This document shows positions 11,200 through 64,000 of a stretch of DNA of 64,000 nt, one piece after another. The notes under the pieces are model-generated. The model was not told where the DNA came from, ran no database searches, and worked only from the letters and a program-made list of their open reading frames with translations. The position numbers were made by a program, and so were the translations under genes. Location: assembly GCA_029391995.1 (NCBI GenBank), contig CP113924.1:527001-591000 (forward strand). The letters run 5' to 3'. Source of the DNA: Streptococcaceae bacterium ESL0729. Its GTDB lineage: Bacteria; Bacillota; Bacilli; Lactobacillales; Streptococcaceae. Each line of letters opens with the position of its first letter. Positions within the stretch are counted from its first letter, which is position 1.

Positions 11200-12065
11200 T
11201 GAAAGCACTAATGATGAGAAACTTAAAACTCTATTTTAAGGAACCTCTAGCAATTTTCTTTTCTCTTTTGAGCTCCCTGATTATTTTAATCCTCTATTTT
11301 GCCTTTTTAAGGGAGGGTTATTTGAGCAATTTGTCGGGACTTCCTGGGCGTGATAAGTTTTCAGACCTTTGGCTTTTGGCAGGCCTTCTTGCTGTAACAG
11401 GTATTACAGTTTGTTTTCAGTCTATGGCACAGCTTGTAATTGACCATTCAAGCGGCAAGCTGCAGTACTTTAGATTGACCGATACTAGGGCTTCAGCCAT
11501 CTATCTAGGCTACTTTTTTTCAAGCTTTATCATCGGAAGCCTGATGCAAATTTTAATCTACCTTATATCAGCTGGCGTTTTTTACATCAAGGATGGCTTA
11601 ATTCCAGGAGTTCATAACCTTCTTCCTTTGATTATAGCCATTTTGCTAAATAGCCTTTTATCAGCCAGCCTAGGTCTTGTAATCACAGGTCTTGTGAAAG
11701 CTAGGTCTAGCTTGAATTCGCTTGGAACAATCATCGGTACCCTGTCAGGTTTTTTGACTGGGGTCTATATTCCTATCGGAAGCCTTCCCAATTTGGGGCA
11801 AAATATCATCAAATTGTTCCCGGGAGCCTATAGTGCAGCCCTTTTTAGGGAAATTCTCTTAAAAGACCAACTTACAGACACTTTTAAGCAGCTACCAGCT
11901 GCTGCTCAAGATAGCTACCGTGAGATATTTGGCATTGGTTTAAAGCTTAACGGTCAATTGACCACACCCCTTGAAAATATTTTAATCATTCTCACATCAT
12001 CCATAGTCCTTGCCCTCTTGTCAATTTTTATTATCAGGCGAACCCTCAAAAAGGGATTAGACTAG
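11199..12065 (+). CDS. ABC-2 type permease
   Basis: Membrane subunit of the exporter, 288 residues with about six hydrophobic segments and the ABC-2 conserved region near the end of the fourth (SLGTIIGTLSGFLTGVYIPIG). Its ATG uses the last base of the ATPase stop codon (TAATG). The pair is typical of drug, bacteriocin or lipid exporters; the sequence does not reveal which. No terminator follows clearly, and the next 355 bases hold the cshA leader. Confidence 0.87.
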   Translation: MKALMMRNLKLYFKEPLAIFFSLLSSLIILILYFAFLREGYLSNLSGLPGRDKFSDLWLLAGLLAVTGITVCFQSMAQLVIDHSSGKLQYFRLTDTRASAIYLGYFFSSFIIGSLMQILIYLISAGVFYIKDGLIPGVHNLLPLIIAILLNSLLSASLGLVITGLVKARSSLNSLGTIIGTLSGFLTGVYIPIGSLPNLGQNIIKLFPGAYSAALFREILLKDQLTDTFKQLPAAAQDSYREIFGIGLKLNGQLTTPLENILIILTSSIVLALLSIFIIRRTLKKGLD

Positions 12066-12139
12066 TCAGGTTTTTGAGGATAATTTTTCTTGGAAACGAA
12101 TTCTTGGTTTTTCTTCTATTAATTAACTATTACTTGTGG

Positions 12140-12145
12140 TATACT
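12140..12145 (+). promoter_or_regulatory. extended -10 box of the cshA transcript
   Basis: TGGTATACT is an extended -10 element. A start near 12152 would give a leader of about 270 bases before the cshA ATG. No convincing -35 box is seen. Confidence 0.45.
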
Positions 12146-12150
12146 TGTAC

Positions 12151-12330
12151 AGTTGCCTGATTGAGGTAATTATAACTCGATGGAGTATTTGGATTTAGCG
12201 TTTTGGGCTTCGTTGCTTGAAATGCAACAAGTTTTTTGTAAGAGTAGAATTTACTCGGAAACGATTTTAAGAGAAACGATAATGATGCCTAACCTTTCGC
12301 GGGCTAGCCATCTAATTATAGGCAGGATAT
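12151..12330 (+). ncRNA. candidate structured leader RNA of the DEAD-box helicase gene
   Basis: The 355-base gap before cshA has no gene but shows three nested pairings: TGCCT (12154-12158) with AGGCA (12320-12324), a self-complementary TAATTA at about 12167-12172 with TAATTA at 12313-12318, and GATGG (12179-12183) with CCATC (12308-12312). Inside lie CTT-C-GTTGC/GCAACAAG followed by T6 (12208-12236), which looks like an intrinsic terminator, and GAGTA/TACTC (12242-12256). I do not recognise a known riboswitch family. Attenuation or cold-responsive control of the helicase is an inference. Confidence 0.5.
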
Positions 12331-12420
12331 GAAGGGACTTCAGATTCCTAGCACTTTATGAAAAACTATTATAAAAAACTATAAATAACCGAAAACTCCA
12401 CTTATTTGAATGGAGATTTA

Positions 12421-13989
12421 ATGAAATTTAATGAATTAGGATTGTCAGAAGACATTCTTACAGCAGTTGAAAAAGCCGGTTTTGAAACACCGTCACCAAT
12501 CCAAGAAGGAACTATCCCACTAGCAATCGCAGGACGCGATGTTATCGGACAAGCCCAAACTGGGACTGGTAAAACAGCTGCTTTTGGACTTCCAACACTT
12601 GACAGAATTGACGTCAACGGTGGAATCCAAGCCCTAGTAATTGCCCCAACTCGTGAACTTGCGGTTCAATCGCAAGAAGAACTTTTCCGTTTTGGTCGTG
12701 AAAAGGGAGTTAAGGTGCGTTCAGTTTACGGTGGATCAAGCATCGAAAAACAAATCAAGGGACTTAAGTCAGGAACTCACATCGTTGTGGGAACTCCAGG
12801 ACGTCTTCTTGACCTTATCCGTCGTCGTGCCCTTAAACTTGACCAAGTAAAAGTACTTGTTCTTGATGAGGCAGACGAAATGCTTAACATGGGATTCCTT
12901 GAAGATATCGAAGACATTATCAAGGCAGTTCCAAATGAACGTCAAACCCTTCTTTTCTCAGCTACAATGCCTGATGCCATCAAACGTATCGGTGTTAAAT
13001 TCATGAGCAATCCTGAACACATCAAGGTAGCTGCAAAAGAAATGACAGCTGATAACATCGAACAATTCTACATCCGTACAAAAGAATTCGAAAAATTCGA
13101 TGTCCTAACACGCCTTCTTGACGTTGAACGTCCTGAGCTTGCAATCATCTTCGGTCGCACAAAACGCCGTGTTGATGAGCTTACTCGTGGACTTAAACTT
13201 CTCGGATACCGCGCTGAAGGAATTCACGGAGACCTTGCCCAACAAAAACGTATGAGCGTTCTTCGTGACTTCAAAAATGATAACCTTGATATCCTAGTTG
13301 CGACTGACGTTGCTGCCCGTGGACTTGATATCTCAGGTGTAACTCACGTTTACAACTACGATATCACTCAAGACCAAGAGTCATACGTTCACCGTATCGG
13401 ACGTACTGGACGTGCTGGTAAATCAGGCCAGTCAATCACTTTCGTTACTAATAACGAAATGGGTTACCTTAAGGCCATTGAAAAACTTACCAAAAAAGAA
13501 ATGACTGGTATGCGTCCACCAACAAAAGAGGAAGCATACAAGGCTAGTCTCTCAGTAGCATTTGATGAAATCAGACGCGACCTTGCGGACGAAAAAGTTG
13601 TTTCAGGACTTGGTAAATTCGACAAGGATGCTGAGCAACTTCTTAAGGAATACTCAGCTGAAGAGCTTGTAGCCCTTCTTCTTAAGGCTAAGGTTAAGGA
13701 CCCTGACAACCAACCTAAGGTTGATATCGCAGCTGAAAAACCACTTCCATTTAACAATGGTTCTGGCAAAGGTGGTGGACGTGGTGGAAACCGCGGAAAC
13801 AACCGTGGCGGTAACCGTCGTGGTGGTTATAAGGGACGTGGCGACCGCAATGATCGTGACCGTAACCGTAATGACCGCAATAGCGATAATAAGAAAAAAG
13901 GTTATTATCAAAACGACAAGAAAAAAGCTCATCCTAAGGGACAAGAGAAAAAAGCTGGTTTCGTAATGCGTAACCGTGGTGACAAATAA
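12421..13989 (+). CDS. cshA: DEAD-box ATP-dependent RNA helicase, CshA type
   Basis: Unwinds RNA in mRNA decay, ribosome assembly and cold growth. The Q motif (ETPSPIQ), Walker A AQTGTGKT, PTRELA, DEAD box (VLDEADEML), SAT and the helicase C motif HRIGRTGR are intact. The C-terminus (from about residue 445) is a Gly/Arg/Asn-rich RNA-binding tail with several RGG-like repeats ending in a basic segment. TGGAG before the ATG at 12421 sets the start; the TTG at 12406 is not needed. Codon bias suggests high expression. The long structured leader upstream points to post-transcriptional control. Confidence 0.93.
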   Translation: MKFNELGLSEDILTAVEKAGFETPSPIQEGTIPLAIAGRDVIGQAQTGTGKTAAFGLPTLDRIDVNGGIQALVIAPTRELAVQSQEELFRFGREKGVKVRSVYGGSSIEKQIKGLKSGTHIVVGTPGRLLDLIRRRALKLDQVKVLVLDEADEMLNMGFLEDIEDIIKAVPNERQTLLFSATMPDAIKRIGVKFMSNPEHIKVAAKEMTADNIEQFYIRTKEFEKFDVLTRLLDVERPELAIIFGRTKRRVDELTRGLKLLGYRAEGIHGDLAQQKRMSVLRDFKNDNLDILVATDVAARGLDISGVTHVYNYDITQDQESYVHRIGRTGRAGKSGQSITFVTNNEMGYLKAIEKLTKKEMTGMRPPTKEEAYKASLSVAFDEIRRDLADEKVVSGLGKFDKDAEQLLKEYSAEELVALLLKAKVKDPDNQPKVDIAAEKPLPFNNGSGKGGGRGGNRGNNRGGNRRGGYKGRGDRNDRDRNRNDRNSDNKKKGYYQNDKKKAHPKGQEKKAGFVMRNRGDK

Positions 13990-35142: not shown

Positions 35143-35149
35143 GATAAAA

Positions 35150-35266
35150 ACCTTTAAGAATAGTCCAGAGAGGCTGTAAAGGTGTGCAAGATTGATATTA
35201 TTACCTACACTCTAAGTGTATGTTTTGTCATAGACACACCCTGCCTTCTGGCCGGGTGTTTTTTGT
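35150..35266 (+). promoter_or_regulatory. PyrR-dependent attenuator (pyr leader)
   Basis: CCTTT and AAAGG close a hairpin carrying AGTCCAGAGAGGCT (35161-35174), the conserved PyrR-binding loop. An intrinsic terminator follows: ACACCC and GGGTGT around CTGCCTTCTGGCC, then T6 (35235-35264). GGTGTGC (35181-35187) can instead pair with the 5' arm of the terminator. In the known mechanism UMP-bound PyrR stabilises the first hairpin, frees the terminator and stops transcription. Confidence 0.9.
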
Positions 35267-35299
35267 TAATTTAAAGTAGGTAACTACTTACAGTCATAG

Positions 35300-53974: not shown

Positions 53975-53989
53975 AGGGTTAAAGTTAAA

Positions 53990-54145
53990 TATTTGTTAGG
54001 TGAGGCTCCTATTTGGACATAAGCTACTGCCGCGAAAGAATCGAGAGACTCTTAGTTGGTAGAACAGGGATGATCGTGAAGGTTATCCATAATGTAGCTG
54101 ATATTTTATATCTACGCCCTATAGTGCTAAAGCTCAACATAAGAT
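53990..54145 (+). promoter_or_regulatory. M-box (ykoK) Mg2+ riboswitch
   Basis: Conserved M-box blocks are recognisable in order: TTAGGTGAGGCTCCTAT, GCTACTGCCGCGAAAGAATC, GGTAGAACAGGGATGATCGT, GGTTATCCATAATG, then TACGCCCTATAGTGCTAAAG with CTCAAC. The family senses Mg2+ and controls magnesium transporters; here it precedes a P-type Mg2+ ATPase gene and is followed by a terminator. CTCAAC (54132-54137) can pair with GTTGAG in the terminator stem, giving the expected switch. Confidence 0.92.
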
Positions 54146-54154
54146 CATGATGCT

Positions 54155-63751: not shown

Positions 63752-64000
63752 GGCAATTTTCGGATAATCGCGCTGGTTTTAACCGGTGAGGAAAGTCCAT
63801 GCTCGCACGGGCTGAGATGCCCGTAGTGTTTGTGCCAGGTGAAACAATAAGCCTGGGGACGAAAGTTACGGCTGGGAAATTGGCTAAGTTTTGATATGCC
63901 AAGATTACCTATAAAAGTGCCAAAGAGACGAGTTTAGCTGGAAACGGCTAAAGTGGAACGTGGTAAACCCCTCAAGCGAGCAACCCAAACTTTGGTAGGG
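63752..64000 (+). ncRNA. rnpB: RNase P RNA, class B (5' part, cut by window end)
   Basis: Catalytic RNA of RNase P, which matures tRNA 5' ends. The conserved block GAGGAAAGTCCATGCTCGCA (63789-63808) and GACGAAAGTTACGG-type sequence, later GAAACGGCTAAAGTGGAACG and AAACCCCTCAAGCGAGCAAC, are typical of the class B (Bacillus-type) RNA. The gene follows gpsB as in streptococci. It is transcribed from its own promoter and continues beyond base 64000; the 3' end is not in the window. Confidence 0.93.

Follow-up and report, generated by a model that had tools for sequence, protein, structure and literature searches.

A Candidate Two-State Leader RNA Upstream of the RNA Helicase Gene cshA in Streptococcaceae Bacterium ESL0729 and a Second Genus of Its Family

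The gene cshA, encoding a degradosome DEAD-box RNA helicase, lies at positions 12421 to 13989 (plus strand, as do all features of this locus described below) of a 64,000-nucleotide stretch of the Streptococcaceae bacterium ESL0729 genome (GenBank accession no. CP113924.1, positions 527,001 to 591,000), here called the window. Its product scored 691 bits against the NCBIfam CshA equivalog NF053631 (cut-off, 646) and matched PF00270 and PF00271, in agreement with an earlier reading of the letters alone (the original prediction), which had also given the gap between the upstream open reading frame (ending at 12065) and the cshA ATG (12421) correctly as 355 bases. Here, we report a leader RNA of 270 nt in this gap (12151 to 12420), delimited by an alignment of 16 leaders and scoring 98 bits with a covariance model (R2) described below. 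It is preceded by an extended −10 promoter element (TGGTATACT; 12137 to 12145), and the pattern TGnTA(T/A)(A/G)CT stands at a constant 5 nt from the leader start in all 16 leaders, so the transcript probably starts at about 12151, leaving a leader of about 270 nt; this start, predicted from the promoter element, lies away from the ATG, as the long leader of the original prediction implies. The Shine-Dalgarno (SD) word UGGAG (12411 to 12415; 5 nt upstream of the ATG) is identical in 16 of 16 leaders, and the whole leader folds below chance (−67.3 kcal/mol; z = −3.1).

About 50 nt upstream of the predicted start lies TTGGAAACGAATTC (12089 to 12104), which we take to be a cre-like site of the CcpA type. 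A similar TGAAAACG(T/C)ATT precedes all 12 leaders of a second genus (g9) and TGGAAACGTATT precedes that of G002, a genome of the window's own genus; no such site was found within 75 nt of the leaders of two further genomes, G001 and G003. Other RNAs in the window are an M-box magnesium riboswitch (53985 to 54152), a PyrR binding site (35147 to 35268), and an RNase P class B RNA (63756 to 64000) cut by the window end.

The window's genome (G000; 1.45 Mb, single contig) was compared with its relatives by a DNA search of 58 related genomes, of which 11 matched: 4 of its own genus, 5 of g9, and 2 with short matches (G031, 27 nt; G051, 40 nt), which were set aside because the loci do not contain cshA. 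Among 295 genomes drawn from the family, the own genus was represented by 4 and g9 by 12, and cshA was located in 30 genomes, namely these 16 and 14 from seven other genera; one upstream region (L131, from G008; 150 bases, at a contig end) was too short and was dropped before leaders were compared. The leader set comprised 16 leaders (15 distinct; 155 to 300 nt), 4 from the own genus and 12 from g9.

The best leader stretches are 90% identical across the two genera (61 nt in G019 and 48 nt in G034), and the other three g9 genomes of the DNA search gave stretches of 73 to 86% identity over 48 to 107 nt. Fourfold-degenerate sites of cshA, compared between the window's genome and the two g9 genomes G034 and G011 (G030, G019, and G025 were left out because the frame was lost), are 46 to 47% identical; leader conservation across the genera is far above that of these sites. 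The pattern AACCGAANNCTCCA...TGGAG occurred in 11 of the 295 family genomes, namely all 4 from the own genus, 6 of the 12 from g9, and G080, whose match lies away from its cshA and was taken as chance.

The original prediction had described a switchable leader built on three nested pairings around a terminator-like hairpin. The named words are present and in nested order (TGCCT at 12154 with AGGCA at 12320, TAATTA at 12167 and 12313, and GATGG at 12179 with CCATC at 12308), as are the terminator-like hairpin with its T6 run and the small GAGTA/TACTC hairpin (words at 12242 and 12252; 12242 to 12256). The nested set itself is neither conserved nor unusual. A nested triple of 5, 6, and 5 bp with gaps of at most 10 nt arose in 131 of 2,000 dinucleotide shuffles of the window leader, and 385 of the 2,000 contained three nested helices with 5 bp or more each, so such a triple is not remarkable. 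Among the 16 related leaders the named set is kept in one, the window's own; even the leader of G002, 92% identical to it, is without TGCCT, AGGCA, and CCATC, and its middle helix survives, by eye, only through a G-U pair (TAATTA/TGATTA). We therefore rejected the three helices as a conserved fold. The alignment with related leaders, by which the original prediction was to be checked, revealed a different one, so that what stands of the switchable leader is a long structured RNA with mutually exclusive pairings, formed by other helices.

RNAalifold, run on the 16 leaders with no structure supplied, returned a consensus made up of three helices (P1, P2, and P3) and three minor pairs. The consensus energy over 15 rows is −24.7, compared with a mean of −2.68 (standard deviation, 1.94) for column shuffles, which preserve gap pattern and conservation class and leave neighbouring bases unpreserved (z = −11.35; 0 of 300 as low); with the two most divergent leaders removed, z is −9.31 (0 of 300). 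Standard pairs fill 96.2% of 421 cells, against 39 to 49% when the partner is slid by one to three columns. That the gap is merely AT-rich DNA with chance pairings and no regulatory function is a view that describes the three nested helices of the original prediction well, and the pair counts of P2 in single leaders are also within chance, but the consensus z score and the conservation across genera far above fourfold sites make it scarcely credible for the leader as a whole.

P1 is a 5′-terminal hairpin (12152 to 12170; 12152 to 12158 with 12164 to 12170). All of its cells are paired over the 13 distinct rows having letters there, and two of its seven pairs changed on both sides (G-C to A-U in G002; C-G to U-A in G000 and G002), making it the best-covarying helix of the conserved fold. 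P3 is an antiterminator-like hairpin (12198 to 12225; 12198 to 12208 with 12215 to 12225) found in the consensus and by counting pairs; 11 of 11 pairs are standard in the 14 leaders that have this block, and the full-alignment value of 92.7%, with its two-sided changes, is not usable because it stems from the misaligned G001 and G003. P1 and the P3/terminator block are absent from these two genomes (L136 and L137), which make up half of the four own-genus genomes; both keep P2 and the SD-hiding hairpin described below, and g9 keeps everything. Three g9 leaders (L117, L118, and L119) carry an extra insert of 53 to 71 nt with predicted hairpins between the 5′ strand of P2 and the P3 block.

P2 is a long-range helix between UGGAGUAUUUGG (12181 to 12192) and CCGAAAACUCCA (12389 to 12400), placed by the alignment, the consensus, single-sequence ensembles, and in silico blocking. 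Its strands are 79 to 230 nt apart across leaders, and the stretch between them is mostly unalignable. In the alignment, 97.6% of P2 cells are paired; 7 of 11 pairs are invariant and no pair changed on both sides, and since the strands are nearly invariant, covariation cannot inform here. In the ensembles of single sequences, P2 dominates for 13 of 16 leaders (pairing probability of the 5′ half at least 0.86). In the other three (G060, G063, and G030) it has one disrupted pair and does not dominate, with probabilities of 0.13 to 0.20 for the 5′ half and 0.37 to 0.58 for the 3′ half. Counting in favour of P2, G001 and G003 have a G-U pair in place of its usual A-A mismatch, with loss of the adjoining U-A pair. 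Counting pairs in single leaders gave no excess for P2: 54 of 200 shuffles equalled the window, and a best 5′/3′ helix as good as the real one arose in 14 to 54 of 200 shuffles for 13 leaders and in 199 to 200 of 200 for G060, G063, and G030.

The 3′ strand of P2 contains the anti-Shine-Dalgarno segment CUCCA (12396 to 12400), and its 5′ strand opens with UGGAG, the same word as the SD. CUCCA can pair with either copy, and pairing with the SD forms an SD-hiding hairpin (12396 to 12415; CUCCA 12396 to 12400 with UGGAG 12411 to 12415) that excludes P2, with which it has its 5′ arm in common. Paired cells make up 97.3% of this hairpin in the alignment and, as in P2, no pair changed on both sides, the strands being nearly invariant. 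With nothing blocked, predicted SD accessibility is 0.79 in the window and 0.15 to 0.81 over the 16 leaders; the SD is mostly paired (0.15 to 0.21 free) in 7 of 16 (G072, G034, G066, G011, G060, G063, and G030), which counts against a clean on state in those leaders. When the 5′ strand of P2 was blocked in silico, the window's accessibility dropped to 0.00 and none of the 16 leaders exceeded 0.05, the partner of the SD then being the 3′ strand of P2 or its spacer (probability, 0.89 to 1.00). Under this block the CUCCA/UGGAG hairpin reached at least 0.93 in 13 of 16 leaders, and G060, G063, and G030 used a shifted pairing in the same region. In a scan with a sliding 12-nt block, the five most damaging blocks all overlapped P2 in 13 of 16 leaders, so the SD-hiding effect appears specific to P2; in the three remaining leaders (again G060, G063, and G030), blocks outside P2 lowered accessibility equally. 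One segment has, by these predictions, two exclusive pairings, one of which covers the SD, and both are conserved in relatives, the exceptions being the 3 of 16 leaders in which P2 is not dominant and the hairpin is shifted.

The same helices could serve to stabilize the mRNA with no switch at all, P1 and P2 protecting it from 5′ exonucleases and from endonucleases; CUCCA would then be complementary to the SD as a by-product. The position of P1 at the predicted 5′ end, its standing as the best-covarying helix, the closure of the whole leader by P2 in 13 of 16 ensembles, and the dominance of one state at equilibrium are all in keeping with this explanation. A clamp, however, would not need a 5′ strand that repeats the SD word exactly, and the hairpin that takes over the SD once P2 is blocked (at least 0.93 in 13 leaders, shifted in 3) would be superfluous to it; we regard pure stabilization as unlikely. 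For the two-state leader, the conserved fold, the mutual exclusion of its parts, and the predicted change in SD accessibility are shown by computation, as properties of predicted structures.

Within the P3 block, a terminator-like hairpin (12208 to 12231) is followed by U6 (12232 to 12237), and it shares bases with P3, the two hairpins excluding each other. In the window the terminator is predicted at −6.2 kcal/mol versus −11.7 kcal/mol for P3, which forms with a predicted probability of 0.99; the terminator hairpin is only about −6 kcal/mol in both G000 and G002. In g9, the hairpin overlapping P3 is followed by U5 to U7 in 11 of 12 leaders. Its energy is −10.4 to −10.8 kcal/mol in nine leaders and weaker in the other three (G025, G069, and G072); P3 lies at −11.1 to −13.5 kcal/mol. 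The U-tract is lost in G025, which has U3 only, and the terminator of G069 has a mismatch. From these energies, much of g9 could plausibly use transcription attenuation, which in the window is unlikely to matter.

A cold-sensing leader had also been raised by the original prediction; in such a leader, cooling would shift P3 against the terminator (and P2 against the SD hairpin) and so induce cshA. Folding of truncated transcripts is in its favour insofar as all 12 g9 leaders have a larger predicted P3 share at 15°C than at 37°C (0.81 versus 0.31 in G078 and 0.54 versus 0.15 in G034; the rise is small where the share is already near 1), a trend that is partly generic because cooling always favours the longer helix. 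In the window, however, P3 stays at 0.98 to 1.00 across 5 to 45°C, and in G075 and G019 it is back down to 0.86 at 5°C. Nor does SD accessibility follow a common temperature trend across leaders: its shifts from 37 to 15°C are small and opposite in sign (0.79 to 0.94 in the window, 0.51 to 0.26 in G001, and 0.15 to 0.05 in G072), and it falls in the cold in several relatives. The window leader does not behave as a heat-melting SD thermometer either, its SD accessibility at 5 and 45°C being 0.97 and 0.76, respectively. Temperature alone is quite improbable as the signal and, on these models, fits less well than feedback from unwinding by CshA.

The original prediction had recognized no known riboswitch class, and indeed no Rfam (release 15) family reached its gathering score at the leader; the best was pan (17.9 versus 36.2 bits; E = 1.4), and a permissive search of the leader gave only subthreshold matches, including pan and a minus-strand csRNA. 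Rfam searches at cshA in 15 further loci found only two unrelated elements, away from the leaders. A riboswitch with the conserved block AUUUAGCGUUUU-GCUUGAAAUGC as the binding site of a small molecule might explain why the primary sequence of this block hardly varies among the 14 leaders having it. We consider it very unlikely, given that the consensus offers no compact multihelix aptamer, that the single target gene has a nonmetabolic product and the leader no Rfam match, and that the two own-genus leaders without the block still keep P2 and the SD hairpin.

We give still less room to a leader peptide, in which translation of a small open reading frame starting at AUG 12180 (MEYLDLAF) would control P2 and P3. 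MEYLDLAF followed by a stop is found in 7 of 12 g9 leaders, but in 3 leaders the frame stops after MEYLD, in 2 it extends to 15 amino acids, and in the window it is open for 50 amino acids, where the product has no NCBIfam or Pfam match (the comparison excludes the G002 row, for which another ATGGAGT had been taken). There is no SD at a normal distance from AUG 12180, and P2 accounts for the same bases. The reading frame being unconserved and free of any domain, this candidate was rejected.

The model R2, built from the window and 13 other leaders, spans the first 89 nt. Against the 30 genomes it gave 14 strong matches, all training members, and two matches (G009 and G063; E = 0.84 and 0.87) that were taken as chance. 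Against 52 loci (30 upstream regions and L019 to L040 of L019 to L098), only the 14 training leaders matched. A search of 395 genomes of the order found the window's own genome only, and this is a thin test, since the draw, made with stricter filters, evidently held no g9 genomes. The full block is present in 14 genomes, in all of which the RNA precedes cshA, with no second match better than an E value of 0.8, and this sole placement fits autogenous control. The known distribution of the leader family comprises two genera.

Other members of the family have a different element in the same place. A hairpin, GYUUCGYAC, with the loop (C/U)UUCG(C/U)A precedes cshA in 7 of 8 Streptococcus loci, in Lactococcus (L019), and in 2 of 5 leaders of genus g8 (L020:2957-2993; L021 to L026; L019:2926-2962; L122:808-844; L124:807-843; further copies in L146 to L175). 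Its stem changed on both sides in 16 of 70 cells (covariation score, 0.62 versus 0.29 when shuffled; 0 of 500). A model (R3) built from ten hairpin-bearing leaders matched 48 of 97 family genomes, as listed 42 of 46 in g4 and 6 of 18 in g8 (two of these six, G010 and G024, are training members), and among the same 97 genomes it had no match in the own genus (g1) or in g9. All 30 of the matches fetched, out of 49, lie 22 to 25 nt before the cshA start; the hairpin has the same spacing in 6 of 7 named Streptococcus loci and stands at 44 nt in L025 and 54 nt in Lactococcus L019. Like the leader of the window, it is a conserved element of cshA leaders within this bacterial family, and Rfam gave no match to it in the loci searched. 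It differs in consisting of a single short hairpin, which covaries and has an invariant loop core, and R2 had no match in the leaders of this type that were searched. Enterococcus-like cshA leaders (L028, L090, L128 to L130, and L133) begin with a GCCGA(A/G)AAG-like sequence and have UUUUUCGGU further on; by eye, they form a third leader type. The comparison suggests that cshA has repeatedly been given a structured leader, with folds that differ by lineage.

DEAD-box proteins unwind short helices. We consider the chances about even that the cshA leader regulates its gene in cis by switching between two exclusive states, with unwinding by CshA as the likely signal. In the on state, P1 would cap the 5′ end and P2 would close the leader and lock the anti-Shine-Dalgarno segment CUCCA, leaving UGGAG open to ribosomes, while P3, once formed, would keep the terminator apart. 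In the off state, with P2 opened or not formed, CUCCA would pair with UGGAG and translation would stop; opening of P3 would likewise free the overlapping terminator to form. As DEAD-box enzymes open short helices and the opening of P2 or P3 would lower expression, negative feedback is the simplest circuit: excess helicase would open P2 and P3, and scarcity of CshA, or cold, would leave them closed, so that CshA would rise. We infer the regulation, its direction, and the role of CshA as signal alike from the modelled fold, and a helicase that controls the structure of its own mRNA, as the original prediction proposed, would be the most attractive mechanism. A more tentative, and on the whole doubtful, extension is that the leader acts as a sensor of helicase activity, in which free unwinding activity, and not the binding of a ligand or protein, sets expression; P2 and P3 would then be test substrates whose unwinding by CshA hides its own ribosome binding site and frees the terminator, and lineage-specific folds, namely this leader and the GYUUCGYAC hairpin of streptococci, would do the same job on cshA.

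Leader switches of the anti-SD/anti-anti-SD kind have a short segment with two alternative partners, the SD and an upstream strand whose pairing leaves the SD free. The cshA leader is alike in that CUCCA has this choice between the SD and the upstream strand of P2; it differs in that the upstream strand contains a second copy of the SD word and is situated about 200 nt away, close to the 5′ end, and in being a new sequence family with no known ligand or protein. Transcription attenuators resemble it in that P3 and the U-tract terminator share bases and are mutually exclusive, and differ in that the terminator of the window leader is a weak one. The leader family appears to be new and narrow, with an architecture of a known kind, the two-state SD leader. 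Among the matches listed in an open-access literature search, no title concerned a cshA leader RNA, which is weak evidence of absence, and the main text of a survey of premature terminators (PMC2965389) contains none of the strings "helicase," "DEAD," "cold," and "Lactococc." The closest published case among the matches listed, going by its abstract, is crhR of Synechocystis, a cold-induced RNA helicase gene that is autoregulated both transcriptionally and posttranscriptionally (PMC3485376). As would be the case for cshA, an RNA helicase gene receives feedback from its own product, measured in Synechocystis and proposed here from the predicted fold; crhR belongs to another phylum and encodes another helicase, and the abstract names no leader fold.

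CshA is, by its NCBIfam name, the RNA helicase of the Gram-positive RNA degradosome. To our knowledge, how the cellular amount of such helicases is controlled is poorly understood. The cshA leader adds an unlisted RNA family to the annotation of these genomes, and its candidate two states would offer a concrete substrate on which feedback by unwinding may be tested.
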